This document shows, one piece after another, positions 4,192-35,200 of a DNA stretch of 64,000 nucleotides (position 1 is the first letter of the stretch; every line of letters starts with the position of its first letter). Source of the stretch: Hyphomonadaceae bacterium (GTDB lineage Bacteria > Pseudomonadota > Alphaproteobacteria > Caulobacterales > Aquidulcibacteraceae); assembly GCA_016791365.1 (NCBI GenBank), contig JAEUMT010000028.1, positions 62,001 through 126,000 of the forward strand, read 5' to 3'. The position numbers were made by a program, and so were the translations under genes. The notes under the pieces are model-generated. The model was not told where the DNA came from and did no database searches. It worked only from the letters and a program-made list of their open reading frames with translations.

Positions 4192-4223
4192 AATATGTCT
4201 GTCCTTCTGGACTTGAGTGAACC

Positions 4224-4236: not shown

Positions 4237-4379
4237 AGCTGGACGTCACCGCCCGGTCCGCGCGGAAATCCGCACGCCCTCCCCCGCACGGGTTCAGACG
4301 CTTTGCGTTGGCAATGTTTTTAGGAGCTGAGGGTTAACAACGCGTCAGCGGCGAAACGATTCTGCAGTTGAAGTGCAGC

Positions 4380-4727: not shown

Positions 4728-5121
4728 CGTGTCCCAGTCCCAAGCGCTCGGCCTCATAGGTGATGAGTTTCCGGCAGCGCATCAGAGCGCGGTAGTATTC
4801 GCCGCTCATTACTTCTTTGGAAACGCCTATGCATTCTGCCAGGACAGCCGGGTCCCGGACGGCGCCCATGAACTCGGCCAGGCGGCCAGCGAACTCGCCG
4901 TACGCCTTCTCCCGCCCCTGCTCATCAAGATACATGAGCATGATCGGGAAATAGATGCGCTTGGCCGGCGTGTCGGCTTCGTCCTGCTGCATGATGTCCT
5001 TCTCACGCAGCACGGAGGCCTTGTTCTGCAGGACAAGCGCAGCCCGGCGATCGCCGTTCTGCACAACAGCGCCGTTGACGACAAACTTCTCGCCCGGCCG
5101 CAAAGAGAGTTTCAGCGGCAT
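4687..5121 (-). CDS. flbT: Flagellin synthesis repressor FlbT
   Basis: A 144-residue FlbT homologue. It has the family opening MPLKLSLRPGEKFVVNGAVV, then NGDRRAALVLQNKASVLREK and a helical second half (RIYFPIMLMYLDEQGREKAY). FlbT is an RNA-linked post-transcriptional regulator that limits flagellin translation until the hook is complete in Caulobacter. It is the first gene of the leftward flagellar block; ATG 5121 is preceded by GGAGGAGGGCAC-type sequence (GGGAGGAGGGCAC), a very strong ribosome-binding site. Confidence 0.93.
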   Translation of the reverse strand: MPLKLSLRPGEKFVVNGAVVQNGDRRAALVLQNKASVLREKDIMQQDEADTPAKRIYFPIMLMYLDEQGREKAYGEFAGRLAEFMGAVRDPAVLAECIGVSKEVMSGEYYRALMRCRKLITYEAERLGLGHDVDSSVPARGHAG

Positions 5122-17748: not shown

Positions 17749-18393
17749 ATGATCGTTGCCTGCCAAGAGTGTGGCGCATCAATAAGCGATGCAGCAGCGA
17801 CGTGCCTAAAGTGCGGCGCACCTCCCGATGCTTATCTCGGTGCCCAGTACAAGTGCGCTGAGTGTGCCGCCAACTATCGACCGGCCTATCCCGAATGTCG
17901 CAGCTGTGGAGCACCGCGTGTCGTCGCGGTCGGCGAGACCACCAACGATCTTGTTACTGAAATTGGAAGCGCGTCGAAGGCGCCTCATACGCGCTCCCAA
18001 GGAGATGCCCGCGCTCCGTACACGACACTCTCCAATCCCCCACAAGAAAGCCCTTCAACGAATATCCTCAGCTTTGAAGGTCGAACCAACAGACTTGGCT
18101 ATTTTCTCATCAATCTTGTAGCGATACCCATCTCGCTCCTTTGCGCCGCCGTGCTCCGTGAAGGGGGAACGGGCGATGTGGTGATAAACCTGCTGCTCAT
18201 TGTAGTCGCCTTCGTTGGCCTCTGGATCATCGTCGCCGCTGGTTGGCGGCGATGCCACGATGCGGGTTGGTCAGGGTACTGGGCTCTATTGGCGCTGCTG
18301 CCTTTGGTGAGCTTGGTCTTCGGGATCGTCATGCTCTTTGTGCCCACCGCAGCCGATCAACATCGCTCGTCACCCTCAGCCACGGCAACTTGA
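17749..18393 (+). CDS. Double zinc-ribbon DUF805 membrane protein
   Basis: A 214-residue protein from ATG 17749. Two zinc ribbons open it: CQECGASISDAAATCLKCG and CAECAANYRPAYPECRSCG. After a polar linker (about residues 65-105) comes a DUF805 domain: FEGRTNRLGYFLINLVAIPI, a second TM (VVINLLLIVVAFVGLWIIVA), the signature WRRCHDAGWSGYW, and a last TM (LLALLPLVSLVFGIVMLFV). The family is of unknown function. It starts 103 bp from the divergent zinc-ribbon Sel1 gene and probably shares a regulatory region with it; the shared ribbon fold suggests related roles. Confidence 0.85.
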   Translation: MIVACQECGASISDAAATCLKCGAPPDAYLGAQYKCAECAANYRPAYPECRSCGAPRVVAVGETTNDLVTEIGSASKAPHTRSQGDARAPYTTLSNPPQESPSTNILSFEGRTNRLGYFLINLVAIPISLLCAAVLREGGTGDVVINLLLIVVAFVGLWIIVAAGWRRCHDAGWSGYWALLALLPLVSLVFGIVMLFVPTAADQHRSSPSATAT

Positions 18394-18542
18394 TTTGCGA
18401 GACGGCTGGCCAGACCCGCTGACAACTCACTGCTTTGCCGGTGAAGCGTGTTACACCTTAATTGGTAGCTCGTTGATTTTGTTCGGCGCTAATCGCTTCG
18501 GTGTTACAGCGAGAGCCTTGAAAAATAAGGCTTAGCCGATTT

Positions 18543-18591
18543 CTCTTAATCAGCGGGTCACAGGTTCGAATCCTGTATCACCCACCATTTT
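18543..18591 (+). other. attR-type site: tRNA-Lys 3'-half copy
   Basis: Starting CTCTTAATCAGCGGGTC and ending ATCACCCACCATTTT. Compared with the intact gene the T stem is ACAGG/CCTGT instead of GGGGG/CCCTC, so the differences are compensatory and pairing is kept. There is no tRNA 5' half upstream, so it is not a functional tRNA gene. Confidence 0.75.
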
Positions 18592-18677
18592 CGGCATCGG
18601 AAGCAAGCGCTTAGACTCTTGATGCTTCGCTCGGCTCGCCACTCAAGCCCGACCTCGGGCCGACATGCTTGCTGTGG

Positions 18678-19385
18678 TCAGCGAGTGCGATATTCGCCCA
18701 ACGTCTCGAGGCATGCGGCCTGAAACCGACTATGGGCCTCGATCGCCTCGTTAGCGATCTCAATGCGCTCATCTAACAGCGGTGACCGGCCGTTTGCCTC
18801 AAGCGTCCCTAATGCCCCCAATGCCCGCACGAGGTCCGCCTCGGCGTCCGCCAATGCTGGCGGACCGATAACGTTGAAGGTGCGCGACGCGTTGAACTCT
18901 ATTCGGGCTCGAACTGCGTCGGCGCTATTCGAGATTCCGGCTAGTTCGTTGAAAAGCTCCCTAGCTCGGGCGCGCCGCGCCGTGCACGCAGCAGCGGCCT
19001 CGCCAGGCTCGCAGGGGGCAGGCTCTACCTCGCCATACCAACTGCCAGCAGAATGCCACTCCCATACATCTCCGTCGCGCAGGGCGACGCTCGCCTGCTC
19101 GCCCGCCAGAGCTCTTATCGACGCTAGCACTGGGGTGAGCTGAGCCGTCGCCCTGCGATCCACCTCAAAACAAGCGTCGATGCGTCGGTTGAGCAGCTGC
19201 GAATTCTTCGTTTCCTCGATCGACTCAAGAGCGGCCCATCCGCTCACCGCCGCTCCTACCGAGGCGACTGCAGCCATCAGTCCGCCAATGGCCGTCAACG
19301 CCGGCCGCAGCCATCTCCATCTCCTCGGGCTCCGCTTTTGCGGCTTCGCATCTGGCTCCGGCGTCGGCAATTGCTCCTCGGTCAT
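18678..19385 (-). CDS. Single-TM protein of unknown function
   Basis: A 235-residue protein, start MTEEQLPTPEPDAKPQKR at ATG 19385. A basic stretch (RSPRRWRWLR) precedes one TM (ALTAIGGLMAAVASVGAAVSGW). The large C-terminal part is helical with Cys in CFEVDRRA, PCEPGEAAAACTARRAR and ACLETL. A Cys-rich insertion between helices suggests an extracytoplasmic location. No family recognised. Adjacent to the tRNA-associated island, so possibly accessory. Confidence 0.6.
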   Translation of the reverse strand: MTEEQLPTPEPDAKPQKRSPRRWRWLRPALTAIGGLMAAVASVGAAVSGWAALESIEETKNSQLLNRRIDACFEVDRRATAQLTPVLASIRALAGEQASVALRDGDVWEWHSAGSWYGEVEPAPCEPGEAAAACTARRARARELFNELAGISNSADAVRARIEFNASRTFNVIGPPALADAEADLVRALGALGTLEANGRSPLLDERIEIANEAIEAHSRFQAACLETLGEYRTR

Positions 19386-19582
19386 CCCGCACGTCCTCCC
19401 GAGTTGCTGATTTTCAACGCGACTATTCTTCCGCAGTGCTCGTTTAACGCGGTCGGCAACCACCTTAGCACGTCTTTGCGGTCAGAGCCGAGCAGGAAGC
19501 CAGGAAACTCTATGCAGCCCGCCGACCAGCCCTCGCTATCGGGCATGACGATGACGCGAAGCGGCCAGAGCTGTTTCGGTTT

Positions 19583-20497
19583 TCACTCACTTGCACCGCC
19601 CAATCGTGCCTCCCGCAACTGTGCAACGGACAATGGCTGGAGTCGATCTGGCGCCATCTCGTGCGTCCATCGGTGACAGGTTGGACAGAGCACCGCGAAG
19701 TCATCGATCGTACTGACGCGGACGCCCGCATGGATTGGGTCGAGGTGGTGGGCGTCGAACATAGCGCGCGTGTCGCTGGTAAAGTCGCAGCCCTCGCATA
19801 CGATCACGCCGCCGTGCCTCTCGCGGTTCGCCGTTTTGGCGGCTTTCACCAGCGCCGACGATCGCTCGATCGAGATGCACTCCCGTAGGATGCGCTTGCC
19901 TTCCTCCGAACTGGCGAGAAGACGCGGAATGATCGATCCCACCAGAGTGAGCCGGCCGGGATCGCGAAAGCCGGGTATCGGCGGAAGGTCACGGCGTCGC
20001 TCGACCTTCAGATCGCGGATCACGGACCACAGCGCTTGCATGTCTTCGTCGCGATGGATGATCCCGTCGTAGGCGTTGGCAAGGATGCGCCTGTCCGCGA
20101 AGCCGAGGTCTTCCATCAGGCGAGGTTGGCCTTCTATGGAATGAACCTCCGACAGCACAACGGAGACCGGCCACTGCGTAAGCAGGCTGCGTAGTTTCTC
20201 GTCTTCCACGAACGTCAGCGTCTCGCCGTACACGGCCGTGACCTTCGCCAATTCGAGCACGCGTCCGTCGAAGCCATCCCGAACCTGCGCGCCGCCGCCG
20301 ATGCTAACGAGCCACGGCGCAGTCAACGACCGCTCCGCAGCACTTCTGGCGAGCGTGTAGTGCTTTCGATCCTTCGCAGATGGATCGCCGCGCGAGCCGA
20401 AGGACATGAGCGGCGCGCTGAGCGTACCCCAGACCGCCTTCACGCCCATGAGCGCAGTTGGCTCACCGACAATCTCAGCAACAGAAAGCGAAGTCAC
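19583..20497 (-). CDS. HNH endonuclease (restriction-type)
   Basis: A 304-residue protein from GTG 20497. The C-terminal HNH module spans about residues 230-285: CEGCDF, then FDAHHLDPIHAG, then IDDFAVLCPTCHRWTH, with the two Cys pairs for zinc and the catalytic His-His plus late His. The N-terminal roughly 225 residues lack an obvious motif and probably bind DNA or recognise a target (IGGGAQVRDGFDGRVLELAK is reminiscent of PUA/EVE-like edges, an uncertain resemblance). HNH proteins with such a leader are usual in modification-dependent restriction. It follows the small winged-helix-like gene by 8 bp, so the two form an operon. Confidence 0.82.
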   Translation of the reverse strand: MTSLSVAEIVGEPTALMGVKAVWGTLSAPLMSFGSRGDPSAKDRKHYTLARSAAERSLTAPWLVSIGGGAQVRDGFDGRVLELAKVTAVYGETLTFVEDEKLRSLLTQWPVSVVLSEVHSIEGQPRLMEDLGFADRRILANAYDGIIHRDEDMQALWSVIRDLKVERRRDLPPIPGFRDPGRLTLVGSIIPRLLASSEEGKRILRECISIERSSALVKAAKTANRERHGGVIVCEGCDFTSDTRAMFDAHHLDPIHAGVRVSTIDDFAVLCPTCHRWTHEMAPDRLQPLSVAQLREARLGGASE

Positions 20498-20505
20498 GGA
20501 ACGAT

Positions 20506-20826
20506 CTAGTCCCTGGTGAGAATGGTTTCGACGTAGCGGCTGTCGGGTACGTCGAACGGAATGATCGGCGCGCCGTCAGATGCGAAGGTTAGCAGACCAC
20601 GTCGCTCAAGCTCATTGAGCAGACGATCGACAGCAGCCTGCGTGACCGACATGCGGTGCACTACCTCTTCATCACTCATTTTCTCAATCGGGCGCTCCAG
20701 AATGCCCGTTAGAAGCATATCAAACTGCTCTTCAGTCATCGGCGTAGCCCACTCGTCTTTGCTGTGCACCCACTCCGCTGCGAAAGCATAGTTTGTGGAT
20801 CGAAACGTCAGCGCGGTCAGCCTCAT
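20506..20826 (-). CDS. Small winged-helix-like protein, operon partner of HNH nuclease
   Basis: A 106-residue protein starting at ATG 20826 behind GGTGGAG. The middle EEVVHRMSVTQAAVDRLLNE, followed by LERRGLLTFASDG, looks like a winged helix-turn-helix with its wing. No catalytic motif is seen. It precedes the HNH gene in the same direction and could be its regulator or immunity/specificity partner. Assignment rests on pattern only. Confidence 0.5.
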   Translation of the reverse strand: MRLTALTFRSTNYAFAAEWVHSKDEWATPMTEEQFDMLLTGILERPIEKMSDEEVVHRMSVTQAAVDRLLNELERRGLLTFASDGAPIIPFDVPDSRYVETILTRD

Positions 20827-20898
20827 CACTCCACCATGGCCATTCGACAGTGCGCACGCTCCCACCCGCGAGCTTCGGATGGCTCACGCCTCGCGCCC

Positions 20899-23193
20899 TC
20901 ACCCCGCAGCCTTCGCCGCGCCAGCCCCAAGCACTTCCCGCAACTTCGCCGCAAGCTCGCGCCGCCGGTATGGCTTGCGCAGCAGCGTGACGCCAGGCGC
21001 GAGGTAGCCTTCTTCATCCATCATCGTTTCGGGATGCCCCGACGTATAAAGCACCGGCATCGCGGGCGCGATTTCGCGCGCGAGCGCCGCCAGTTGCGCG
21101 CCGCTCATGCCGCCGGCCATCACCACATCGGTGAACAGCAAATCGAAGCGCTCACCTTCACGCAGCATCTGCATTGCTTCCGCGCCGGTGCGCGCGCTGA
21201 CAACGCGATAGCCAAAATTCGCCAGCTCACCCGCGACCTGCGCGCGCAAGAGATTGTCATCTTCGACCAGCAAGATGCGCTCATGCCCCGTCGGCGCGGC
21301 TTCATCGGCGCCGGCGCCGGCATCGCGCCGCACCTCGGTTGAGCGCGGCAGATGCACATTCACGGTCGTGCCCGCGCCAAGCTCGCTCTCAATGCCAATG
21401 CGGCCCTTCGACTGCGTGACGAAGCCATAGACCATGCTGAGTCCCAGGCCCGAACCCTTCCCCACTTCCTTGGTCGTAAAGAACGGCTCGAACACACGCG
21501 CACGCGTATTCTCATTCATGCCCGTACCAGTATCGGTCACCGACACGGTCACGTACTCGCCCGCCGCCTGCGCGCCATCGCCCGCGAGCGTCGCGTTCGC
21601 GACATCGATCGTCAGCACGCCGCCGCCCGGCATCGCATCGCGCGCATTGATGCACAGATTGAGCAGCGCACTTTCAAGCTGCAGCGCATCGACCTGCGCG
21701 TCCCACACGTCATCGTCCGCGACGATCACGATCTCGACCTGCTCGCCCAGCGCACGCCGCAGCAATTGATCCATGCCGCGCACCAGCGCCGCGACATCCA
21801 CCGGCCTGGGATCAAGCGCCTGGCGGCGCGAGAACGACAGCAGCCTGCTCGTCAGCTCCGCCCCGCGCTCGGCCGCCAGCCGCGTCATCTCCGCCAGCAT
21901 GTGCAGGTGATCATTGCCCGCGAGCCGCGTCTCCAGCAATTCGGCGTTGCTCAAGATGACGGTCAGCAGATTGTTGAAATCGTGCGCCACGCCGCCGGTG
22001 AGCTGGCCCACCGCCTCCAGACGCTGCGACTGACGCAATTGCGCTTCCAATTCGCGCTGGCTCGTCACATCGACCATCGAGCCGACCATGCGCACGGCCC
22101 TGCCATCGCTATCGCGGATCACCGAGCCGCGATCCGTCACCTGCGCCAGCGAGCCGTCGCCGCGAATGAACCGGTACTCATCGGCCCATTTCTCGCCGTC
22201 GCCATCGATCACCGCGTGAATGCCGGCGAGCACGCGCGCGCGATCGTCGACGTGAATGGCGTCCGACCATGAATCGGACGTCGCCGAACGCCGCTCCGGC
22301 TCATAGCCGAACATGCTGCGCATCCCGTCGCTCCACCACATGGTGTCATCGACAAGATTCCAATCCCACACCACGTCCGCCGTCGTTTGCGCGACGATGC
22401 GGAAGCGCTCGGTGGATTCCTTCAGCATCAGTTCGGCGCGCTTGCGCTGGGTGATATCGCGCGCAACGACGACATAATGCGTGACGACGCCCTCATCATC
22501 CGCCAACGGCGCAATCTCGCCTTCGACCCAGATTTCGCGGCCGTCCTTGGTGTAATTGATGATCTCGGTCCGCGCCGAGGCGCCGGTGCGAAGCGCATCG
22601 CGTGCGCGCGACAGCTCGTCGGGATCGGTGTGCTCGCCGTGCAGGAAGCTCAGTGACCTGCCCAGCACGTCCGCCGCCGTGTAACCGGTCATCACCGTGA
22701 AGGCTTCATTCACGAACACGATCGGCGGCCCGTCCGAAATCGGCGCGGCCGTCGTGATGATGACGACATCCTTCAGCCGTGAGATCGCCGATTGCAGCAG
22801 GCGCATCGTCTCTTGCGTGTGGTGGCGCCCGGTAATGTCCCGGAAATAAACCGCGAGCCCGCCCTGCGATGCGAATGCGCGCACCTCCAGCCGCATCCCG
22901 AGCGGCGGATAGTCGAGCTCAAACGTCGTCGAGCCGCCATGCTCTTTTACTCTGGTGTATTCGCGGCGCGCGATCGTATCGGCGCCCTCTGGAAACTCGT
23001 CCCACATATTCTTGCCGAGCAGCGCTTCGCGTCCGCGCTGCAGCAGCACTTCCGCCTTGCCGTTGATGTAAGTGAAGCGCCAGGCGGCATCGAGCAGGAT
23101 GAAGCCGTCCGGCATACTCTCGAGGCTGGCGTAGAGCTGGTCGTCCCGCCCGCCGCCACTGATCGCCGCGCGAGTATGTTCAACGCCGCTCAT
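20899..23193 (-). CDS. Hybrid histidine kinase, PAS-PAS-PAS-HisKA-HATPase-REC
   Basis: A 764-residue cytoplasmic sensor kinase without TMs. PAS domains lie at about 15-125, 135-255 and 265-385 (for example SLESMPDGFILLDAAWRFTY; MTGYTAADVLGRS; MFGYEPERR). The H-box GGVAHDFNNLLTVILSNAEL has its His at about 402. ATPase motifs follow (LNLCINARDAMP, DTGTGMNE, GKGSGLGLSMVYGF). The C-terminal receiver begins with RILLVEDDNLL (about 636) and carries the phospho-Asp in LLFTDVV at about 690. The HDFNN type of H-box belongs to the HWE-like/HisKA_4 hybrid kinases common in alphaproteobacteria. The start is at 23193; no upstream regulator is adjacent. Confidence 0.95.
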   Translation of the reverse strand: MSGVEHTRAAISGGGRDDQLYASLESMPDGFILLDAAWRFTYINGKAEVLLQRGREALLGKNMWDEFPEGADTIARREYTRVKEHGGSTTFELDYPPLGMRLEVRAFASQGGLAVYFRDITGRHHTQETMRLLQSAISRLKDVVIITTAAPISDGPPIVFVNEAFTVMTGYTAADVLGRSLSFLHGEHTDPDELSRARDALRTGASARTEIINYTKDGREIWVEGEIAPLADDEGVVTHYVVVARDITQRKRAELMLKESTERFRIVAQTTADVVWDWNLVDDTMWWSDGMRSMFGYEPERRSATSDSWSDAIHVDDRARVLAGIHAVIDGDGEKWADEYRFIRGDGSLAQVTDRGSVIRDSDGRAVRMVGSMVDVTSQRELEAQLRQSQRLEAVGQLTGGVAHDFNNLLTVILSNAELLETRLAGNDHLHMLAEMTRLAAERGAELTSRLLSFSRRQALDPRPVDVAALVRGMDQLLRRALGEQVEIVIVADDDVWDAQVDALQLESALLNLCINARDAMPGGGVLTIDVANATLAGDGAQAAGEYVTVSVTDTGTGMNENTRARVFEPFFTTKEVGKGSGLGLSMVYGFVTQSKGRIGIESELGAGTTVNVHLPRSTEVRRDAGAGADEAAPTGHERILLVEDDNLLRAQVAGELANFGYRVVSARTGAEAMQMLREGERFDLLFTDVVMAGGMSGAQLAALAREIAPAMPVLYTSGHPETMMDEEGYLAPGVTLLRKPYRRRELAAKLREVLGAGAAKAAG

Positions 23194-23472
23194 CCCTCGC
23201 CGGTACGGCCTTCACTGGGGAACCGCAAGGCTGGCATACTAGTCCAAACGTCGTAGCGCTTTGAGCTTCGTAGCAGGCGCTACGCGGCGCGCCACAATCC
23301 CTAACAATCCACTAATTGTTTTTGCTTCATTTCGGACCACTACAACCTGCGGCGGAAACGTCTCGGAAACACATTCATCGTAAATCTGGCAACGCAGGCA
23401 TCAGGACGCAGAAGCGTCAGGAGTGCGTGTGGGCTGACTGAACGTCGGCTCTCTAGACCAAGAAGGTCCGCA
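23194..23472. other. Promoter region of the octad-repeat gene
   Basis: A 279-bp divergent gap between the hybrid kinase and the octad-repeat gene. It is less GC-rich between about 23290 and 23350 than its surroundings, as expected for a promoter. GAAGGTCCGC before ATG 23473 gives a weak ribosome-binding site. No CtrA-type box or strong hairpin is visible. Confidence 0.4.
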
Positions 23473-26400
23473 ATGTCGGTTTCGAGCTTGTCTGCCGCGC
23501 AGGTTGCTGCGCTGTCCGTGTCGGCTATTCAAAGCCTCTCGACGACCACCCTAAGCTCATTTGCCGCCACCCAGATCGCGGCCATCAGCGCCACCGGTGT
23601 TGGCGCGCTCTCCAATACGCAAGTTGCGGCGCTCTCGACCACGCAGGTCAAGGCGTTCACCGCCACGCAGATCCCGAACTTCTCGAGCGACGTCACCTTC
23701 TCGTCGGCGCAGCTCCTGGCCCTCAACGACGTGCAGCTGGGCGCCTTCAACGGCACGCTGATGGCCAACATCAGCAGCACCGCCGTCGCCGCCTTCGCCA
23801 CCACGCAAATCCAGGCCTTCAGCGCCGCCAACATCTCGGCGCTTGACGAGACCCAGGCCGGCGCGCTCACCACGACACAGATTTCCAGCCTGACCACGGC
23901 TCAGGTCGCCGGCTTCAGCGCCACCGACATTGGCGAACTCAGCACTGTCCAGGCGCGTGCGTTCACCGGCACGCAGGTCGCCCGCCTCTCCAACGCCGCC
24001 GTCGCCGCCTTCGACGCGAGCCAGGTCGCCGCCCTGACCACCACCCAGGTCAAAGCGCTGACCGCAACCCAGATCACCGCTCTCGACGCCACTGACATCG
24101 CCGAGTTCGCCGAAACCCAGATCGCCGCGCTTTCAACCACGCAAGTGCGCGCCATATCGACGGCGAACATGGCCGCGTTGACGGAAACGCAAATTCACGG
24201 CCTCACCTCGTCTCAGCTGCAAGCGCTGACCAACACCAACCTCGCCGCGCTCGCCGACACGCAGATCGCGGCGCTCTCGACCGCGCAGGCCTCATCGCTC
24301 ACCGCGACGCAGATTTCAGGCCTCAACGCCACCAATATCGCTGAATTCACCGCCGCCCAGCTGGCGGCGTTCACGGTCACGCAGGTGAAAGCGCTGACCG
24401 CCACCAACATGGCGGCGCTGCAGGACACTCAAATCGCCGCCTTCGACGCAACGCAAATCGCCACCTTCACCGCAACCACGATGGGCGCCCTCACCGCCGA
24501 CCAACTCGGCGCGCTGACCACCGACCAGATCAATGCCCTCAGCGCCGCGCAAGTGAAGGCCTTCACCGCCACCAACATGGCCGCGTTCAGCGATGTCCAG
24601 GTCGGCGCCTTCAACGCCACCCAGATGCAATCGCTGACCAACACCGCGCTCTCGGCGCTGGTGGATACGCAGGTCGCGGCGCTCAACACCACGCAATTGC
24701 AATCGCTGAAAGCCACGCAGATCGCCGCGCTCTCGGGCGCCGACATGGCCGAATTCTCCACCGACCAGATCGCGCTGTTCTCGGCCGGCCAGGTCAAGGG
24801 CTTCACCGCGACCAATATCGGCGACCTCACCGACGCCCAGGTCGCCTCGCTGACGACCGCGCAATTGCAAGCGCTCAACAACACGCAATTGGCCGCGTTC
24901 GACGCCTCGCAAATCGGCGCGCTCACTGCCGGCCAGGTGGCTTCGCTCACCGCCGCTCAAGTCCGCTCGCTTGGCGCCACCACCATCGACGCCCTCGCCG
25001 ACACTCAAATCGCCGCCATGACGACGACTCAAATCTCGTCGCTCTCGGCCACCGCCCTCGCCAGCTTCGATAGCTCGCAGATCGGCGCGCTCACCACGAA
25101 CCAGGTCGGCGCTTTCAGCCGCGCTCAAATCGGCCTGATGACCAACGCAACATTGTCAGCCTTCGACGGCGCGCAAGTCGCCGCGATGAACTCGACCCAG
25201 CTGCGCTCGATCACGACGACGCAAATGGCAGCCCTCGATGCGGCCGATGTCGCCGAATTCGCCGCCTCGCAACTCGCGGTCATGGCCACCACGCAAATCG
25301 CGGCGCTCACGGCCACGAACATGGCCGGCCTCACCGAAACCCAGATCGCCGGCCTCGGCACGTCGCAAGTCGCGTCCATCACCGCGACAAACCTGCGTTC
25401 ACTCGCCGACACGCAGATCGCGGCGATGACAACCGGTCAAGTCGCGGCGCTGAGCACAACCCAAGTGGGCGGCCTTAACGCCACCAACGTTGGCGCGCTC
25501 ACCAATGCGCAGATCGGCGCTCTTACCGCCACCCAGGTCTCCGCCCTCTCCACGACCGCTGTCTCCGCCTTCGACGCCGCCCAGTTCGCCGTTCTCAACA
25601 CCACGCAAGTGCGCGCGCTGACGGCAACGCAGATCGGCGCCATGCAAGCCGCTGACGTCGCCGACATCACCACCGCGCAAATCGCCTCGTTGACGACGAC
25701 GCAGGTCACGGCGCTCAACGCCTCGAACGTCGCCAACCTCACTGAATCTCAGGTCGCAACGTTCTCAACCGCGCAATTGCAGGCGCTCACCACCAACAAT
25801 CTGCGCAGCTTCGCCGACACCCAGATCGCGGCGCTCACAGATGCGCAGGTCGCGAACCTCAGCACCGCGCAGGTCGCCGCCCTCACCGCCACCAATGTCG
25901 CCGCGATGACGACGAACCAGGCGGCCGCCCTCACCACCACGCAAGTGGGCCTCCTCAGCGGCGCCAACGTGCACGCCCTGGCCGACACGCAAGTCGCCGC
26001 CATGAGCACCGCGCAGGTCAAAGCCTTCACGGCCACGCAACTCGCCTCGCTCAACGCCACCGACATGGCGGAATTCGCCGCCACACAAGTCGCGGCGATG
26101 ACGACGACGCAAGTCGCCGCGCTCTCCAGCGCCAATTTCGCCGCGCTCGCCGATACGCAGGTTGAAGCGCTGACCGTCACGCAACTCACCGCCGTATCAA
26201 CCACCAAGATCGCGGCGATGACGGAAACCCAAACTGCGGCGCTGACGGCGGCTCAAGTCGCCTCGCTCAGCACGACGCAAGTTCGCGCCATCACCAACGC
26301 CAACCTCTCGGCGCTCGACGCCACGCAATCAGCCGCCCTCACCGACGCGCAGGTCGCGGCGCTGACATCGACGCAAATCTCCAGCCTCTCGGCCGGTGAC

Positions 26401-29400
26401 GTTGCCGACCTCACGACCGCGCAGATCGCGGCCATGGCCACGACCCAAATCCGCGCGCTGACTGAAACGACCCTGGGCGACCTTACCGAAACGCAGGTCG
26501 CGGCCTTCACGGCGACGCAGATCGCCAACCTTTCAACCGCCAATATCGGTCACCTCGCCGACACCCAGGCTGCCGCGCTCACCACCACGCAAGTCGCCGC
26601 CCTCACCGCCGCGCAACTGAAGGAAGTGTCAAACACCAACCTTGCCGCCCTGACGACGGCGCAGCTCAATGCGCTCTCTTCGACGCAAATGCGCGCGCTC
26701 ACCAACACGCAGATTGAATCGTTGGGCGCCAACGACGTCGCCGAATTCACCGGCGCCCAACTCGCGAACCTCACGACGTCGCAAATGGCGGCGCTCAACC
26801 AGACCAACATGGCCAGCCTCAGCGCCGGCCAGGTCGCCGCCTTCGCCGCGACGCAAGTCGCGCGCCTCAGCACCGACGCGGTAAATGCGCTCGACGCGAC
26901 CCAAATGGGCGCGCTGACCGCCACGCAAGTCAAAGCGCTGACCGCCACTCAAATCGGCGCCCTTGGCGCGACTGACGTTTCAGAATTCACCGCCGGCCAG
27001 ATCGGCGCGCTGACCAGGACCCAACTCGGCTCGCTCAGCAACGCAAGCCTCGCCGGCCTGACCGCGACGCAAGTCGAAGCCTTCGCGACCACGCAAATCC
27101 AGTCCTTCTCGGCTTCCGCCCTCTCGGCGCTCGACGCGGCCCAGGCCGCCGCGCTGAAAGTCACGCAGATCGCCGCGCTGACGACGACGCAGGTCGCCGG
27201 CCTCAACGCCACCGACATCGGCGAACTCGCCGCAACGCAAACCAGCGCCCTCACCGCAACGCAGATTGGCGCCCTCACCAATGGCGCGGCCTCGGCGCTC
27301 GACGCAGCCCAGATGGCGGCGCTGAGCTCGACCCAGGTCAAGTCGTTCACCAGCACGCAAATCACCGCATTCAGCGCCACCGACATCGCTGAAATGAGCG
27401 CGGCGCAGCTCGCGCAGCTGACGACAACGCAGGTCGCGGCGCTGGCCGACACCAACATCACCGAACTCAGCGAAACCCAGATCGCGGCCTTCACGACGAC
27501 GCAGATCAAGTCGCTCTCGGCCAACAATCTCTCGCATCTTGCCGACAGCCAGATCGCCGCGCTGACGACCGCGCAGATCGCCGCGCTGTCGACACAGCAG
27601 GTGAACGGCCTCAACGAAACCAACATCGGCGCCTTCACCGAGGCGCAAGCCGCGGCGTTGACCACGACGCAGATTTCCGGCCTCTCCAGCGCCGCCGCGC
27701 ACGCTTTCGGCGCCACCCACGTCGCCGCGATGAGCACGGGCCAGGTTCGCGCCTTCAGCGCCACCCAGCTTTCGGCGCTCGACGCGACCGACATGACCGA
27801 GTTCACCGAAACCCAAGTCGCCGCCCTGACGACGACGCAGGTGTCCTCGATCTCCGCCGCGAACCTCGCTGCGCTGGCCGATACCCAAATCGCCGCGATG
27901 ACCGCCACGCAGGTGCAGGCGATCACGACCACCGGCGTCGCCGCCCTGACTGAAACCCAGGTTCAGGCGATGACGACGGACCAGGTGTCCGCCCTCTCCA
28001 CCCAGCAGGTCCGCGCCTTCACCAACGCCAACCTCTCGGCGCTCGCCGCTGATCAGGTCGCCGCGATGACGACGAACCAGATTGCAAGCCTCTCGGTCGC
28101 GCAGCTCAACTCGCTCAACGCCGGCGACATCAACGAATTGTCGACCGCTCAGGTCGCGGCGCTCGCGGCCTCGCAGGTCCAGGGTCTCAACGCCACGGTG
28201 GTCGGCAATCTCAGCGAAGCGCAAGTCGGCGCGATGACGACGACGCAAGTCGCCGCCCTCTCCGCGGCCAACGCGCACGCTCTGGCCGACACCCAGATCG
28301 CCGCCATGTCGACCGCACAGGTCGCCGCGATGACGAGCACGCAGATGGCGGCGCTCGACGCCGCCGACATGGCCGAATTCGCCGCCACCCAAATCGCGGC
28401 GATGACGACCACGCAAGTCCAGGCCATCAACGGCACGAACCTCGCCGCCTTCGCCGAAACGCAAGTCGCGGCGCTAACGGCGGCCCAGCTCGGCGTTATC
28501 ACCGCCACCAAGCTCGCCGGCCTCAGCGAAGCGCAAGTGGCCGCGTTCACGACCACGCAAATGGCCGCGCTCTCGACCAGCCAACTGGCCGCTCTCTCCG
28601 CGACCAAAATCTCGGCCTTCGCCGACACGCAGGTCGCCGCCCTCTCCGCGACGCAGGTGCGCGCCTTCTCGGCCGCTCAGATCAACGCGCTGCAAACCTC
28701 GGACTTCGCCGAGTTCACCAGCGGCCAGGTCGCCGGCATGAGCACGACGCAGATCGCCGGCCTCAACGCCACCAGCGTCGGCGCTTTCGCCGATACGCAG
28801 ATCGCCTCGCTCACCGCGACGCAGCTGCAATCCATGCTCGCCGCCAACGTGAAGGCGCTGAGCGCGACGCAAGTCGGCGCGATGACCAACGCTCAGATCG
28901 CCGCGCTCAGCATCTCGCAAATCCAAGGCCTCGACGCGACCGACATCGGCGAATTCACCGCCGATCAAATCGCCCACATGACCAGCACGCAGATCCGCGC
29001 CTTCGACTCCACCAAGCTGGCCGCGCTCGACGAAAGCCAGGTCGCCGCCCTGACCTCAACACAGCTCAGCGCCATCACGACCTCGAACGTCTCGGCCTTT
29101 ACCGCAAGCCAGGTCGCCGCCCTGACCGCCTCGCAAGTCTCGGCCTTCACGGCGCAGCAGATCGGCGCCTTCTCGGACGCCAATCTCGCGGCGCTCGATG
29201 AAACGCAGGTCGCCGCCCTCACGGTCACGCAAGCGCGCTCGATCACCAGCGCTCAACTGGCCGCTCTCACCGCCAACGACGTCGCCGAGTTCAGCAACGC
29301 TCAGCTGGCCGGGATGACGACGACGCAAATCGGCGCCCTGACCGCGGCCAACGTCACCGCCCTCGCCGACACGCAAGTGGCGGCGCTCTCGGCGACGCAG

Positions 29401-29787
29401 ATCGGAAAACTCGGCACGGCCGCGTTCGCCGCCCTCGAAGCGGCGCAGATCGCCACCCTCGACGCAACCCAGGTGCGCGCCCTCGCCGCCTCGCAAATCG
29501 CTGTCCTCAGCGCCGGCGACATCGCCGAGTTCACCGACACCCAAATCGGCGCGCTGACGGCGACACAAGTGGCCGCCTGGTCGACGGATGTGATCCAGGA
29601 CCTCACCGCCGCCACCATCGGCGCGCTAGTCGTGACGCAAATCCCGTCGCTCACCGCCACGCAGCTCGATCACCTGAGCACCACCAACATCGCGAACTTC
29701 AACGCGACGCAGCTCTACGCCTTCACCTCAACGCAGGTCGCGAGCCTCGACAACGATCAGATCGAAGCCTACCTCGGCGCTGTCTAA
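23473..29787 (+). CDS. Giant octad-repeat protein (about 262 copies of T-Q-[IV]-x-[AS]-[LF]-[ST]-x)
   Basis: A 2104-residue protein made almost entirely of an 8-residue repeat, for example TQVAALST, TQIGALTA, TDIAEFAE. After nine octads there is a single 6-residue break (DVTFSS, about residues 73-78); the remaining 2026 residues equal 253 octads plus a terminal Ala-Val, so the register appears unbroken. Every third or fourth octad lacks the TQ and carries an Asn/Asp type (TNMAAL, ADMAEF). There is no signal peptide, TM or Cys and little charge apart from Asp/Glu. The spacing [ST]-x-T-Q could act as a helix N-cap box, so short helices or a solenoid are possible. Composition is Ala, Thr, Ser, Gln and Leu/Phe. 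Likely a structural, secreted or surface polymer; the route of export is unknown. A GT41 glycosyltransferase follows. Confidence 0.9.
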   Translation: MSVSSLSAAQVAALSVSAIQSLSTTTLSSFAATQIAAISATGVGALSNTQVAALSTTQVKAFTATQIPNFSSDVTFSSAQLLALNDVQLGAFNGTLMANISSTAVAAFATTQIQAFSAANISALDETQAGALTTTQISSLTTAQVAGFSATDIGELSTVQARAFTGTQVARLSNAAVAAFDASQVAALTTTQVKALTATQITALDATDIAEFAETQIAALSTTQVRAISTANMAALTETQIHGLTSSQLQALTNTNLAALADTQIAALSTAQASSLTATQISGLNATNIAEFTAAQLAAFTVTQVKALTATNMAALQDTQIAAFDATQIATFTATTMGALTADQLGALTTDQINALSAAQVKAFTATNMAAFSDVQVGAFNATQMQSLTNTALSALVDTQVAALNTTQLQSLKATQIAALSGADMAEFSTDQIALFSAGQVKGFTATNIGDLTDAQVASLTTAQLQALNNTQLAAFDASQIGALTAGQVASLTAAQVRSLGATTIDALADTQIAAMTTTQISSLSATALASFDSSQIGALTTNQVGAFSRAQIGLMTNATLSAFDGAQVAAMNSTQLRSITTTQMAALDAADVAEFAASQLAVMATTQIAALTATNMAGLTETQIAGLGTSQVASITATNLRSLADTQIAAMTTGQVAALSTTQVGGLNATNVGALTNAQIGALTATQVSALSTTAVSAFDAAQFAVLNTTQVRALTATQIGAMQAADVADITTAQIASLTTTQVTALNASNVANLTESQVATFSTAQLQALTTNNLRSFADTQIAALTDAQVANLSTAQVAALTATNVAAMTTNQAAALTTTQVGLLSGANVHALADTQVAAMSTAQVKAFTATQLASLNATDMAEFAATQVAAMTTTQVAALSSANFAALADTQVEALTVTQLTAVSTTKIAAMTETQTAALTAAQVASLSTTQVRAITNANLSALDATQSAALTDAQVAALTSTQISSLSAGDVADLTTAQIAAMATTQIRALTETTLGDLTETQVAAFTATQIANLSTANIGHLADTQAAALTTTQVAALTAAQLKEVSNTNLAALTTAQLNALSSTQMRALTNTQIESLGANDVAEFTGAQLANLTTSQMAALNQTNMASLSAGQVAAFAATQVARLSTDAVNALDATQMGALTATQVKALTATQIGALGATDVSEFTAGQIGALTRTQLGSLSNASLAGLTATQVEAFATTQIQSFSASALSALDAAQAAALKVTQIAALTTTQVAGLNATDIGELAATQTSALTATQIGALTNGAASALDAAQMAALSSTQVKSFTSTQITAFSATDIAEMSAAQLAQLTTTQVAALADTNITELSETQIAAFTTTQIKSLSANNLSHLADSQIAALTTAQIAALSTQQVNGLNETNIGAFTEAQAAALTTTQISGLSSAAAHAFGATHVAAMSTGQVRAFSATQLSALDATDMTEFTETQVAALTTTQVSSISAANLAALADTQIAAMTATQVQAITTTGVAALTETQVQAMTTDQVSALSTQQVRAFTNANLSALAADQVAAMTTNQIASLSVAQLNSLNAGDINELSTAQVAALAASQVQGLNATVVGNLSEAQVGAMTTTQVAALSAANAHALADTQIAAMSTAQVAAMTSTQMAALDAADMAEFAATQIAAMTTTQVQAINGTNLAAFAETQVAALTAAQLGVITATKLAGLSEAQVAAFTTTQMAALSTSQLAALSATKISAFADTQVAALSATQVRAFSAAQINALQTSDFAEFTSGQVAGMSTTQIAGLNATSVGAFADTQIASLTATQLQSMLAANVKALSATQVGAMTNAQIAALSISQIQGLDATDIGEFTADQIAHMTSTQIRAFDSTKLAALDESQVAALTSTQLSAITTSNVSAFTASQVAALTASQVSAFTAQQIGAFSDANLAALDETQVAALTVTQARSITSAQLAALTANDVAEFSNAQLAGMTTTQIGALTAANVTALADTQVAALSATQIGKLGTAAFAALEAAQIATLDATQVRALAASQIAVLSAGDIAEFTDTQIGALTATQVAAWSTDVIQDLTAATIGALVVTQIPSLTATQLDHLSTTNIANFNATQLYAFTSTQVASLDNDQIEAYLGAV

Positions 29788-29809
29788 GCGCCGGGCCAGG
29801 CTCGAACCC

Positions 29810-29840
29810 AACGCCCGGCGCACCCCCTGCGCCGGGCGTT
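29810..29840 (+). terminator. Perfect 13-bp stem-loop after the octad-repeat gene
   Basis: AACGCCCGGCGCA pairs perfectly with TGCGCCGGGCGTT around a 5-nt C loop. It lies 22 bp after the stop of the repeat gene and 81 bp before the glycosyltransferase start. No U-run follows, so it may be a partial terminator or an RNA 3'-end stabiliser that lets some transcription continue into the glycosyltransferase. Confidence 0.7.
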
Positions 29841-29921
29841 AACGCATTAAGATTTCGGCAACGCAAATCACCGGAGATTCGCGCGCGGGCGCGTGTGCCC
29901 GCGTAAGCGGGTGCGCGTCTC

Positions 29922-31982
29922 ATGTCTCAAACGGCGTTCGTGACGGCGTTGCAGAAGGTCACGACCGGAGATCTGGCGCTCAACGAGCTCATCGCCGCGG
30001 CTCAGCAGTTGAGCAATACCGGCCAGCACGACCTCGCCCGCCAGCTCTATCAAATCTGGATCGCCATGAACGGCGATCACCCGCTCTTGTTCATCGCGCA
30101 CTTCAATTGCTCGACGCTGCTCGCCCAGGGCGGCGACGCCGCCGGCGCACTTGCATCATTGCGCGCCGCCCTCGCCGTCAATCCGGACTTCGCCCCCGCG
30201 CACATCAATCTCGGCAGCGCGCTCGAACGCGAAGGCAACGCCGCCGGCGCTGTTGAACAATGGAAAGCCGGCCTCGAACGCCTGGCCGCCATCACCGGCG
30301 ACGCTGTCGAATATAAGATCACATTGCTCAAGCAACTAAGCCGCGTGCTGAGCGACAACCAGCAGCACGAAGCCGCCGAAATCGCGCTCACCCAATGCCT
30401 CGATCTCGGCCTCAACCAGCGCGACGTCGTTGAGCAATACGCGGCCGTGCGCCTCGCGCAGTGCAAATGGCCAATCGCGACGACGCCGACCAAGCTCACG
30501 CGCGACAATTTCGTTTCGCGCTTCCACCCGCTTTCCTCCTGCGCCTATTCCGACGATCCGCTTCAGCATCTCGGCCTCGCGCACCGCTACAGCGACGCCG
30601 TGGCGCCCGCGATCACCAGCGCCAGCGACCGCCGCAACGCAACGATCGCGCAAGGCCGGCGTCTGCGCATCGGTTATGTCTCATCGGACCTGCGCGCCCA
30701 CGCCGTCGGCTATCTGATGGCGAACCTCTTCGAAGCCCACGATCCCAAACAGATCGAGGTGTTCATCTATTATTGCGGCATCCCGGCCGAAGGCGACGGC
30801 ATCAACACGCGCATCAAATCCGCCGTCGAACACTGGACCGACATCCGCACCATCAGCGACGACGAAGCCGCCGCAAAAATCGCCGCCGACGAGATCGACA
30901 TCCTCATCGACGTCAACGGCCACACGCGCGACGCGCGCCCCGGCATTTTCGCGCGCCGGCCCGCGCCCATCCAGGTCAATTGGCTTGGCTATCCCGGCAC
31001 CATGGGTAGCCCCTACCACCACTACATTATCGGCGACGATTGGGTGATCCCGCGGGATCACGAGATTTATTATTCCGAGCGCGTGCTGCGTCTGCCCTGC
31101 TACCAGCCGAACGACCGCAAGCGCATCGTCGACACAGCGGCGCCGCAACGCAGCGACCACGGCCTGCCAGAAGACGCCTTCGTGTTCTGCTGCTTCAACG
31201 CCGCGCACAAAGTCACGCGCTTTTCGTTCGAACGCTGGATGGCGATCCTCGCGCAAACGCCGAACAGCGTCATGTGGCTTCTGGACTACAACACCGAGAC
31301 CAACACCCGCCTCCGCGCCGCCGCCGAAACCTACGGCGTCTCCGGCGATCGCCTGATCTTCGCCAAGAAAGTCCCGAACCCGCGCCACCTCGCGCGCTAT
31401 CCGCTGGCGGATCTCTTCCTCGACACCGCGCCGTACGGTGCGCACACCACCGCGTCCGATGCGCTCTGGATGGGCGTGCCGGTGCTCACCTATGCCGGCC
31501 GCAGCTTTGCCTCACGCGTCTGCGCCAGCCTCGTGCGCGCCGCCGGCGCGCCGGAACTCATCACCACATCGCCGGATGCGTTCATCGCCCGCGCCATTGC
31601 GCTGGCGACGACGGACCGCCTCGCCCTCCACGAAGTGCGCCAACGCATCATCGCCAATCGCGACACCTGCACGCTCTTCGACATCGATCTGCTCGCCCGC
31701 AAACTCGAAGGCCTCTACGCGCAAATGGCCGATGAATATCACGCTGGCGCGCTGCCGCGGCCAAACCTCGCGAACCTGCCGGCCTATCTCGATATCGGCG
31801 TGAACATCGATCACGACAGCGCCGAGATCAGCGCCGCCGCCGACTATCACGACATCTACCGCGCAGCCCTCGCCGCCCGACACTACAACACGCCGCTGCA
31901 GGCGGACGCGCGGCTCTGGACCGAAAACGAAATCGGCGCAGCCGACGCAATGCCCGCGCGCAAAAAAACACTGGCGGCCTAG
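29922..31982 (+). CDS. TPR-GT41 O-linked glycosyltransferase (OGT/SPINDLY-like)
   Basis: A 686-residue cytoplasmic enzyme. TPR-like repeats occupy about residues 10-135 (TLLAQGGDAAGALASLRAAL, INLGSALEREGNAAGAVEQW). The GT41 domain begins near 248 with LRIGYVSSDLRAHAVGYLM. Positions expected to be essential are kept: His in DLRAH, NGHTRDARPGIFARRPAPIQ then WLGYPGT, Lys in CCFNAAHKVTRFSF, and DTAPYGAHTTASDALWMG then FASRVCASL. It should transfer a sugar from a nucleotide donor to Ser/Thr of proteins. The gene sits directly after the Thr/Ser-rich octad protein, a natural candidate substrate; Caulobacter flagellin glycosyltransferases of TPR-GT type (FlmG) are the alternative parallel. Donor sugar unknown. 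Confidence 0.93.
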   Translation: MSQTAFVTALQKVTTGDLALNELIAAAQQLSNTGQHDLARQLYQIWIAMNGDHPLLFIAHFNCSTLLAQGGDAAGALASLRAALAVNPDFAPAHINLGSALEREGNAAGAVEQWKAGLERLAAITGDAVEYKITLLKQLSRVLSDNQQHEAAEIALTQCLDLGLNQRDVVEQYAAVRLAQCKWPIATTPTKLTRDNFVSRFHPLSSCAYSDDPLQHLGLAHRYSDAVAPAITSASDRRNATIAQGRRLRIGYVSSDLRAHAVGYLMANLFEAHDPKQIEVFIYYCGIPAEGDGINTRIKSAVEHWTDIRTISDDEAAAKIAADEIDILIDVNGHTRDARPGIFARRPAPIQVNWLGYPGTMGSPYHHYIIGDDWVIPRDHEIYYSERVLRLPCYQPNDRKRIVDTAAPQRSDHGLPEDAFVFCCFNAAHKVTRFSFERWMAILAQTPNSVMWLLDYNTETNTRLRAAAETYGVSGDRLIFAKKVPNPRHLARYPLADLFLDTAPYGAHTTASDALWMGVPVLTYAGRSFASRVCASLVRAAGAPELITTSPDAFIARAIALATTDRLALHEVRQRIIANRDTCTLFDIDLLARKLEGLYAQMADEYHAGALPRPNLANLPAYLDIGVNIDHDSAEISAAADYHDIYRAALAARHYNTPLQADARLWTENEIGAADAMPARKKTLAA

Positions 31983-31994
31983 CCAACATTTTCC

Positions 31995-32096
31995 GTCATC
32001 CTGGGGCTCGCGAAGCGAGGCCCGGGACCCAGAAGTCACAAAGCGCGTCTGTTGCCCCTGGATCCCGGATCGCGCTCACGCGCGCTCCAGGATGAC
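31995..32096. repeat. Palindromic repeat, family A (copy 2)
   Basis: Begins GTCATCCTGGGGCTCGCGAA and ends CTCCAGGATGAC, with the same inner GGGACCCAG / CTGGATCCC pair as the copy at 14475. It lies between the glycosyltransferase and the convergent autotransporter gene. Confidence 0.8.
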
Positions 32097-32172
32097 AGGA
32101 AGTCTTGGACCGGTCGGAGTTTGCGCGAACGGAATTCATCATCCTGGAGCGCGCGTGAACCCAACGCGTTCC

Positions 32173-32265
32173 GTCATCCTGGGCTCGCGAAGCGAGGCCC
32201 GGGATCCAGAAGTCACAAAGCGCGTCTGTTGCCCCGGGTCGCACTCACGCGCGCGCCGGGACGAC
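32173..32265. repeat. Palindromic repeat, family A (copy 3, tandem)
   Basis: A second copy in direct tandem with the previous one; about 50 bp in the middle (around AGAAGTCACAAAGCGCGTCT) are identical between them. The right end has drifted (CGCGCCGGGACGACAGG). A half-copy lies between them (about 32139-32155). Confidence 0.75.
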
Positions 32266-32270
32266 AGGCC

Positions 32271-35200
32271 TTAAAACCGGAAGCGGATCGCGGCGTTGAT
32301 GCTGTGACGCTCGATCTGGTCGCTGAACTCGCCTTCGTAACCGAGCGAGAACGTCGAATAGCCGTTGGTTGCGTCAAAGCCGACGCCAATCAGCGGACCG
32401 CCATCGCCAACGCCCTCGTCCGTCAGCGTGAACGGCGTGCCGGTCGAGATAAACTCCACCGTGCGTTCGGATTCCGCATCCAGCGTATTGGCGCGATACC
32501 CCGCATAGATGCGCGGCGCGACAACCGTCTGCTGGCCGAAGCGGAAATTGGCTGCGAGTTCAACGCCCACGTCAGCCCAGAGGCGTTGTGAGAACACGCT
32601 GTCGACGCGATAGTCGATCGCAGCGCCGCCGCCGGTTTCCTCGTAACCCTCTTCCGAGATGCCGACATAGGTCAGCGCCGCTTGCGGCGTGATCGTGATC
32701 GTGTCGGTGAGCGCGAGCGGCACCGAGGCGCGGATCGCGCCGTGGCCTTCATAGGCCATCCACTCGGCTTCCGAGAGCGCGCTGAACGCGACGGGGTTGC
32801 CGATTTCGACAAAGCGGCGTGACTGCATCTTGCCGCCGCCAAGGCCGCCGATGAAGTCGAGGTCGACCGGCCCCAGCGCCGTCGCGTAGTAGGCGCTGCC
32901 CTGCACGAACCAGAGCGAGATCTCGCCTTCCGGACGGCCCGGCTCTTCCACTTCCGATGCAATGAACGACGCCGACAGGCCGAACAGATCGCCATTATTG
33001 GTCGGGCCATCGATGCCGGCGGCGAAGCCGAAGCCGTTGCCGCGGAATTCCTGCGAGTTCGCCGTCGGCGCTTCACGCGTCAGGCCGTAGGCGATTTCCT
33101 GGCCCCAGACCGAAACTTCTTCCAGCCCCTGCATGCGCGTCGCCGACATGCGGTTCGACGTGGCGCTTTGCATTTGCTGGATCGCCGTCGCGGCGATTTC
33201 CGTCGCGCCGTCGGCATAGTTCGGCAACAGGTCTTCGTACGCATCGAAGAATTCGTACTGGCTGGTGATCGCCGCCATCGCCGCCGATGCGTCGTCATCC
33301 AGACGCAGCGCCGCGAGGATCGGATCGAACGCGATCGCCTGGTTGTCGCTGAGCCCGAGTTGCGCCGGCGTCCGCAATTGGAACGTGGCCTGCAACGCGT
33401 TCGCCGCGCCTTCCACGATCGGGTTCGTCGTCCCGATGCTCACCGTATAGAGATAAGGCGAGTTCGCCGTCGCGACGGCGCCGACAACATTGGCCGCGCC
33501 GAACATGCCGCCATTGGCGGTCAGGAACGTCTGGGTGCCGGAGACCGGAAGGCCTTCCGGCAGAATCGGGTTGATCGATGCGCCGGCCGCGAACGTCACC
33601 GTGCCCGAGGCCGTGATCGTCGCGCTGTTCGCCGGAACGCTGGAGAGGAACGGATTGTACTGGCTGCTGGCGCCGAATGTCGCGCTGGTGATGTTCAGCG
33701 CCCCCGTCCCCTGGTTCAGCGTGCCGTTGGTCAGGTTGAGGATCAAATCCCCGCCGGCGTCGCTGATGCTGCCCGAATAGACCGCGCCATTATTGATCGT
33801 GAACGTATCGGCGCCCGCGCCGAACGAGACATCGCCGCTCACCGCGCCTGACAGCAGGTTGAAGACGTCAGCGCCGCTGCCGAACAGGATATCACCCGTG
33901 ATGTTCGCCGGCGCGGCGACGACATCATCGACCGTGTCATCGTCGGTGAACACAACCGGCGCGATTTGCTGGATGGTCACGCCGCCCGCATTGTTCGATA
34001 CGTCGATCGCGATCGCATCGCCCGCCGGGTTCGGCGGCGGAATGCCGTCGGTGAGATTGTCGTCCGTCGGTATGAGCAGCGCAACGATCTGGCCGCTATT
34101 GGTGATCGAGGACACCGTGCCGGACGCATCCGCGAATGCGATCGCATCGCCGACTTCGCCGAACATCGATGCCTGGATGACGCCGCTATTGTTCAGCTCC
34201 GGCAGCGCAGCGCCCGTATTCACATAAACGCCGCGCGCAATGTTGGCGCCGTCCGCCGTCACGGTGGTGAAGATGCCGCCGCGAATTTGCAGCAGATCGC
34301 CGACGCCGATCACCGAGCCCTGGTCGAGCAGCAAGCCGATCGCATTGCCTTCGGCCGCCCGCGCGAACAACGCATTGTCGATCGAAATACCGCCATCGAT
34401 CGTGGTCGTGAAGCCGCCATTGCCCGCGATCCGCAGCGTGGTCGCGTTGATGCCGTCAAAGACGCCCGAGGACGTGAGCTGACCGCGCATCAGCAAGCCA
34501 AAGCCCGATGCGCCCGCGCCCACCGTCAGGTTCGCGCCATTGGCCTGGATCAACATCGCCGGCGCACTGCCAAGACTGCTGACCTGGGCCCCGGCGTTAT
34601 CGTCGGCTTCGCCTTCGGTGGCGTCGTCATCGTCATCGAGATCGTTCTCGTTGCCGACGCCCACGACCGTGATGCCATCGGCGACATTGCCGTTGACCAG
34701 GATCGCCGCACCTGACTGCTCCAGATCGTCAGCGTCGAGGTTGCTTTGATCGGAAGGCGCGGTGGACGACAGATAGCCCGTCACCGTCCACGTGCCGCTC
34801 AGCGAAAGCTCGCCGCCGACATTGCTGTTGATGTGAATGCCGGTGCTGTTTTGGCCGCGCACCAGGCCCGCGCCGGCAATGGTGACATCGCCCGTGACGC
34901 CGCCATTGATCGCGATGGCCGTCGAATTGTCGCCGATGACGTTGACGACGCCGGAATTGGTGAGCGTGCCGGTCAACAGCGCGTTCGTCGTGATCCCCGA
35001 CGAATTGTTGCCCTCGATGCCGATCGTGCCGGTGTTGGAAATGCCGCCGGTGAACGTCGGTCCGGCCTGCAGGAAGATGCCGTGGCGGTTGGTCCCGGTC
35101 GCAACGTTGCCGTCGAGATCGCCGTCGGCGTTCGAGTCCGCGATGGTGTAGGTTTCGAGCAGGTTGATCGAGCCCGAATTGACGACGTTGCCGCTGTTGC

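Follow-up and report, generated by a model that had tools for sequence, protein, structure and literature searches.

The window analysed here, a stretch of 64,000 nucleotides from a Hyphomonadaceae bacterium (assembly GCA_016791365.1, contig JAEUMT010000028.1, positions 62,001 to 126,000 of the forward strand), carries a gene for a 2104-residue protein built of octapeptide repeats (octads). It is followed directly by a gene for a glycosyltransferase of the GT41 type. The two genes and the elements associated with them are as follows, in window coordinates, with the evidence for each in brackets:

23353..23385, plus strand: conserved, promoter-like element holding a pair of GGAAAC boxes (15 upstream regions aligned)
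23394..23468, plus strand: three conserved leader hairpins directly 5' of the start codon (covariation in 15 leaders)
23473..29787, plus strand: octad-repeat (ALTTAQ) protein, 2104 aa (translation of the open reading frame, Pfam, autocorrelation)
23473..23688, plus strand: first nine octads, conserved N-terminus (conservation values; similar N-termini in relatives)
23689..23706, plus strand: six-residue break, residues 73-78 (PNFSSD-type break in same-genus copies)
23707..29778, plus strand: 253 uninterrupted octads with a superhelical period of 3.43 octads (lag and Fourier analysis)
29665..29784, plus strand: conserved C-terminal 40 residues, a candidate cap or export signal (conservation)
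29922..31982, plus strand: TPR and GT41 (OGT-type) glycosyltransferase, 686 aa (PF13844 and TPR; human OGT and XcOGT matches)

The open reading frame (ORF) at 23473-29787 has zero internal stops. The length sum given in an earlier, sequence-only reading of this DNA (9x8 + 6 + 253x8 + 2 = 2104) is correct: there are 262 octads and a single break, at residues 73-78. Identity at a lag of eight residues is 0.313, compared with 0.1216 +/- 0.0068 in 2000 shuffles (largest 0.142, z = 28). It is 0.31-0.36 at lags 16, 24, 32 and 40, and 0.12 or less at the remaining lags up to 40, which fits the strict octad phase proposed in that reading. The motif proposed with it, T-Q-[IV]-x-[AS]-[LF]-[ST]-x, serves as a loose consensus; taken strictly it matches only 39 of the 262 octads. 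A hydrophobic frame is kept in 259 of the 262, with V, I, L, M, A or F at position 3 and L, F, M, I, V, W or Y at position 6. The protein contains no Cys, as had been noted, and only two Pro; Ser and Thr make up 24%, and the net charge is -83. The claimed lack of a signal peptide and of transmembrane segments is suggested by one line of evidence, the Kyte-Doolittle profile, whose highest 19-residue mean is 1.44. A tandem-repeat finder run on the DNA detects only short arrays in the gene (2-3.5 copies), which marks the octads as old and diverged.

It had also been claimed that no characterised family has a strict octad. A family does exist: the Pfam model PF20080 (ALTTAQ_rpt) covers the protein in 79 stretches with 747.5 bits (cut-off 26.4). 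A search of NCBIfam gave no family, and a search of a phage collection gave no match at E 1e-5. A literature search for ALTTAQ found no paper in a collection that holds neither preprints nor most subscription papers, so this absence is weak. The octad protein belongs to a repeat family that has a name but is uncharacterised as far as these searches show. Its relatives carry labels such as hypothetical, heme utilization or ICE nucleation protein. A match on plasmid CP117533.1 of a Spiroplasma endosymbiont, at 23% identity, perhaps reflects composition only. Kinship with leucine-rich repeats was rejected: PF23952 reaches 44.6 bits in total with no single stretch passing, both this model and the leucine-rich repeat chains in the PDB match through composition only, and the predicted model is helical.

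The octads carry a longer period. Octad-to-octad identity peaks at lags 3, 4, 7, 10, 14, 17, 24, 31, 38, 41, 48, 55, 65 and 72, which are multiples of about 3.43 octads. Of 14 sequence features put through Fourier analysis over the 253 octads, 11 have their peak at 3.425-3.440; the power reaches 65, where the 99% level of shuffled sequences is about 9. The spacing of polar and charged residues is 3.43 octads, and it stays in phase across all 253. When the octads are placed on a wheel, N or D at position 2, D or E at position 8 and E or D at position 5 cluster on one side, and K or R at position 4 lies opposite. The same period is present in relatives. For Gln at position 2 it lies at 3.395-3.455 in 21 of 21 runs from same-genus copies. 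A wider set of 21 loci included other orders and the class of Pseudomonas (two antisense ORFs were dropped, and locus L088 gave no run of 400 residues); there, a peak at 3.37-3.47 is among the top five in all 32 sense runs and ranks first in 24. In Pseudomonas, in Niveispirillum, in one Shinella run and in one run of locus L099 it is equalled or surpassed by another peak. A period of about 3.43 octads per turn would correspond to about 105 degrees per octad.

The length of the protein is conserved. The same-genus set comprises 30 genomes, of which 17, with the window counted, carry the repeat gene: 12 as intact copies, 2 as contig fragments and 3 in frameshifted or split form. Eight of the intact copies have 2104 residues, two have 2102 and two have 1720. 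The seven other 2104-residue copies align to that of the window without gaps at 58-76% identity, with at least 46% in each 100-residue block; identity is 32-37% when the alignment is shifted by one octad. The ratio of nonsynonymous to synonymous substitution rates (dN/dS) against four orthologues is 0.18-0.22, indicating purifying selection. The 1720-residue copies are best accounted for by two separate losses, each of 24 octads or seven turns. Of 47 middle offsets compared, 24 octads gives the best fit in eight of eight comparisons, with a small gain in identity over a single-break fit (about 0.02-0.035). Conservation is higher at the ends (0.869 for residues 1-78 and 0.900 for the last 40 residues) than in the middle (0.770). 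Relatives from other orders and Pseudomonas have similar N-termini, related C-terminal ends occur in relatives, and a PNFSSD-type break stands at the same place in those same-genus copies whose N-terminus was read. The conserved C-terminus has a hydrophobic or aromatic end and is a candidate export signal.

The octad protein is predicted to be an alpha-solenoid with one short helix per octad. The AlphaFold2 model of residues 655-974, made from an alignment of ten segments of the protein itself, has a mean pLDDT of 95.5, a pTM of 0.84 and 40 helices per 40 octads. The N-terminal 320 residues, modelled with two orthologues in the alignment, gave a best mean pLDDT of 94.5 (five models span 94.5 to 75.5) and a pTM of 0.84; the six-residue break falls within the confident model. 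No strand appears in either, which contradicts the earlier suggestion of a beta-strand repeat and, with it, the ice nucleation and heme-utilisation adhesin labels of relatives. Position 7 is S, T, D or N in 217 of the 262 octads, position 2 is Q, N, D or E in 232, and 191 consecutive pairs have the former followed by the latter in the next octad. The helix capping box is established peptide chemistry. Most Ser and Thr at position 7 look like helix N-caps, with positions 7 and 2 apparently forming such a box. The sequence-only reading had taken the dense Ser/Thr content as a pointer to a structural or surface polymer. A structural, surface-type polymer does fit the evidence; because most position-7 Ser/Thr resemble N-caps, however, their density by itself indicates neither glycosylation nor adhesion. 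The GT41 gene next to the repeat gene is a better guide.

The product of that gene matches PF13844 with 270.9 bits (cut-off 25), and TPR models lie above or near their cut-offs. It is close to human OGT and XcOGT chains (OGT match 6e-87). In an alignment with human OGT, the HTTxxD motif, the Lys following the FN motif and the SDxxxH His are kept; these are catalytic and UDP-binding residues. The enzyme may transfer a sugar to Ser/Thr. GT41 lies directly downstream of the repeat gene in all 17 same-genus carriers. Four of the 13 non-carriers have some GT41, and one of these four has the orthologue, which lies at the end of a contig, at the point where the repeat gene would start. The resulting association (17/17 carriers, 1/13 non-carriers; Fisher 1.5e-7) overstates independence, as the carriers are related. 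Among 389 genomes of the class, scanned for the repeat at a cut-off of E 1e-6 at which divergent members may be missed, GT41 is present in eight of nine repeat carriers and in 129 overall (Fisher 8e-4, uncorrected for kinship). Of the 15 class loci read, 6 contain it, and these belong to six of the eight other class carriers. It is also present in 12 of 18 plasmid loci, which were hand-picked from 58 matches and share one record with the class set. Two Shinella members (L036 and L110) have octads and no GT41 in the stretch read; L036 shows the period.

The enzymes linked to the repeat gene form a clade of their own. When the class is searched with GT41 alone, the five best genomes after that of the window (1e-188 to 1e-230) all carry the repeat and span two genera. 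The next genome follows at 1e-115, and the linked GT41 of one carrier, G417, stands far down at 1.5e-100. In a tree of 65 rows, the 38 linked rows (one of them at a contig end and counted as linked, L055) lie on one side of a single branch with support 100/100, apart from the 27 unlinked; shuffled linkage labels need 20.9 changes. The unlinked rows were the top PF13844 matches of class genomes and three from the same genus, not a random draw.

Secretion genes accompany the pair in some lineages. Type I ABC and HlyD genes are clustered with it in 5 of the 18 plasmid loci (two Pseudomonas plasmids, Niveispirillum, Cereibacter and Pseudoroseomonas) and in one further class genome. The Cereibacter cluster, carried on plasmid pA of the laboratory strain Cereibacter sphaeroides 2.4.1, also holds rfbBDA and sulfotransferases, and a UDP-galactopyranose mutase is present in two rhizobial clusters. 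A search of the same literature for O-GlcNAc transferase together with type I secretion found no paper, an equally weak absence. The octads, their period, the frozen length, the paired GT41 clade and the co-localised secretion genes were all computed directly.

The region 5' of the repeat gene is also conserved. In the upstream element, 11 bases separate the GGAAAC boxes, and ATTCATCGTAAA comes after them. The 23-base core of the element has a single occurrence in its own genome when up to 3 mismatches are allowed. In the leader, covariation amounts to 37 double-change cells (12.5 in shuffles; reached in 0 of 500) and to 10 doubly changed pairs (6.5 in shuffles; reached in 5 of 500), the structure being scored on the same alignment that yielded it. 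The last hairpin adjoins the start codon and holds a purine-rich ribosome-binding stretch in its loop. A search for the leader found it in three of three carriers and in none of nine other genomes below E 0.1. A wider regulon was rejected, with no second strong copy in the 12 genomes searched. An Rfam scan of window positions 18000-33000 gave no match, a sigma-70 scan gave no promoter, and a terminator scan gave no more hits than in shuffles.

We consider it somewhat probable that the octad protein is a fibre that is O-glycosylated in the cytoplasm by its GT41 partner and then exported. On this view the gene pair would make a protein fibre that is coated with sugar and has its length set by the gene. 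Each octad would be one short helix, capped by S, T, D or N at position 7, with Q at position 2 closing the capping box and positions 3 and 6 forming the core. At about 3.43 octads per turn, the 262 octads would make a slender solenoid of about 76 turns, with N, D and E on one face and K and R on the opposite face. The TPR-GT41 enzyme would recognise the chain in the cytoplasm and O-glycosylate exposed Ser/Thr. Export would follow, through a type I system in the lineages where such genes are clustered, and the surface fibre may serve in attachment, biofilm formation or coating. A broader proposal, made tentatively and with somewhat less than even confidence, is that these proteins represent a class of bacterial nanofibre made of protein. 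Each fibre would be a single chain whose octads, one helix each, turn by about 105 degrees, with a length set in whole superhelical turns and acidic and basic stripes for lateral packing. The chain would be accompanied across orders and classes by a travelling, dedicated O-glycosyltransferase clade, and its gene would have a dedicated structured leader RNA.

Several observations weigh against these proposals. The core features (F at position 6, V/I at position 3) and T at position 1 lack the 3.43 period, and the twist of about 105 degrees follows from the sequence period, not from the predicted models. The repeat gene is frameshifted or split in 3 of 17 same-genus assemblies (L042, L045 and L049), through either assembly error or decay. 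Among the 15 class loci read, 9 lack GT41, and so do 6 of the 18 plasmid loci (two Shinella, Pararhizobium, R. grahamii, Thioclava and Polaromonas); one class carrier, G166, is without any GT41 match. The fold is predicted, and glycosylation, export and the surface role are inferred. Within the genus, no secretion gene is constantly linked to the repeat gene, an ABC exporter with an HlyD adaptor was not encountered close to it, and no export route was found. A PrtD-type ABC exporter scores above cut-off in 14 of 17 carriers and 8 of 13 non-carriers, counts that do not support a constant type I exporter, and the 99%-complete carrier G019 has none above cut-off. Finally, flagellin lies on the same contig within about 21 kb of the repeat gene in 7 of the 17 same-genus carriers and adjoins it in two, G007 and G013.

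This last point bears on a different role for the pair, which we regard as unlikely. The GT41 would be a flagellin glycosyltransferase, and the octad protein would be associated with the flagellum or be a mere neighbour in a flagellar region. FlmG of Caulobacter crescentus is described as a cytoplasmic O-glycosyltransferase with TPR and GT-B parts whose substrate is flagellin, the filament protein (PMC7591256). In the window, genes for flagellin, FlaF and FlbT are located at 2920-5121 on the minus strand, 19 kb from the repeat gene. Flagellar genes also flank the Rhodovastum and Pseudorhizobium loci, on two plasmids, and it is these and the seven same-genus carriers that keep the flagellum-linked explanation alive. 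Flagellin, however, is present in 30 of 30 same-genus genomes, whereas the GT41 orthologue is present in 18, of which 17 carry the repeat gene. In addition, the annotated Pseudomonas, Cereibacter, Pseudoroseomonas and R. daejeonense stretches hold the pair without listed flagellin genes.

A slightly less likely explanation is that the octad protein stays inside the cell, with or without glycosylation, as a scaffold or as a filament that acts like a ruler. A fixed length suits a ruler, hydropathy makes no signal peptide evident, and the genus has no constantly linked secretion gene; this explanation is, however, at odds with the type I secretion genes clustered in Pseudomonas, Cereibacter, Pseudoroseomonas and Niveispirillum. 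That the ORF is a low-complexity or drifting repeat with no function, as the three broken same-genus copies might suggest, is very improbable in view of a dN/dS of about 0.2, the exact length, the ungapped alignment, the sequence-wide phase and the conserved leader.

A 1075-aa autotransporter (window 32271-35498) follows the pair, and likewise in 5 of 16 other same-genus carrier loci; these are the nearest relatives of the window, and the autotransporter was rejected as a partner on this ground. A PAS hybrid histidine kinase (window 20899-23193) is divergent from the repeat gene, and a gene 40% identical to it over 412 residues adjoins the repeat genes in L091 and L099. A 96-base tandem repeat of 2.7 copies lies within a Sel1-repeat ORF (window 16714-16972). 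Anti-phage defence was rejected, as PADLOC assigned none of four proteins to its families.

Surface repeat proteins usually vary in repeat number, and that of the octad protein is frozen. The superhelical phase is seemingly read out in the sequence, which would make fibre geometry testable from sequence. If a GT41 clade is tied to one protein family, bacterial OGT-type enzymes would have a natural substrate that is both regular and very large, and the pair would be a clean system for questions of target choice by TPR-GT41 enzymes. A Pfam family with the labels given above would gain a testable role.

The pair resembles known systems in part. HMW1C is likewise a GT41-type enzyme paired with a large secreted protein; it modifies Asn, and its substrate HMW1 is a two-partner-secreted beta-helix adhesin, unlike the pair described here. 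The window GT41 is also closer to OGT than to HMW1C-like chains, which it matches weakly (1.6e-08). Foldseek searches with the two models gave no close solved fold among the matches listed. Mesothelin, also a superhelix of short helices, heads both, with TM-scores of 0.42 or less among those matches and about 14% identity. The best PDB match by sequence is HeliScrew4 (PDB 9zem; phmmer 6.1e-14, profile 6.3e-24), a short protein of 120 aa which, from its name, we take to be designed. Compared with the octad protein by sequence only, it has octads of the type LTPEQIAA, and a fold of the octad kind may therefore already be solved. Entry 9zem is not among the best 50 matches listed in either fold search (library up to April 2026), and a search of the same literature for HeliScrew found no paper, again a weak absence. 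FlmG, as described above, shares with the window enzyme the combination of TPR and GT-B O-glycosyltransferase and a filament protein as substrate. The substrate here would instead be an octad solenoid, and the enzyme clade tracks the octad gene and not flagellin, in a tree built without FlmG. Pfam PF20080 describes the same octads as a stretch of 38 positions; its listing mentions neither a function nor a superhelical period, and neither a fixed length nor a partner of the GT41 type. New here are the superhelix written in the sequence, the frozen length, the OGT-type partner dedicated to the octad gene and the type I secretion genes that accompany it in some relatives.

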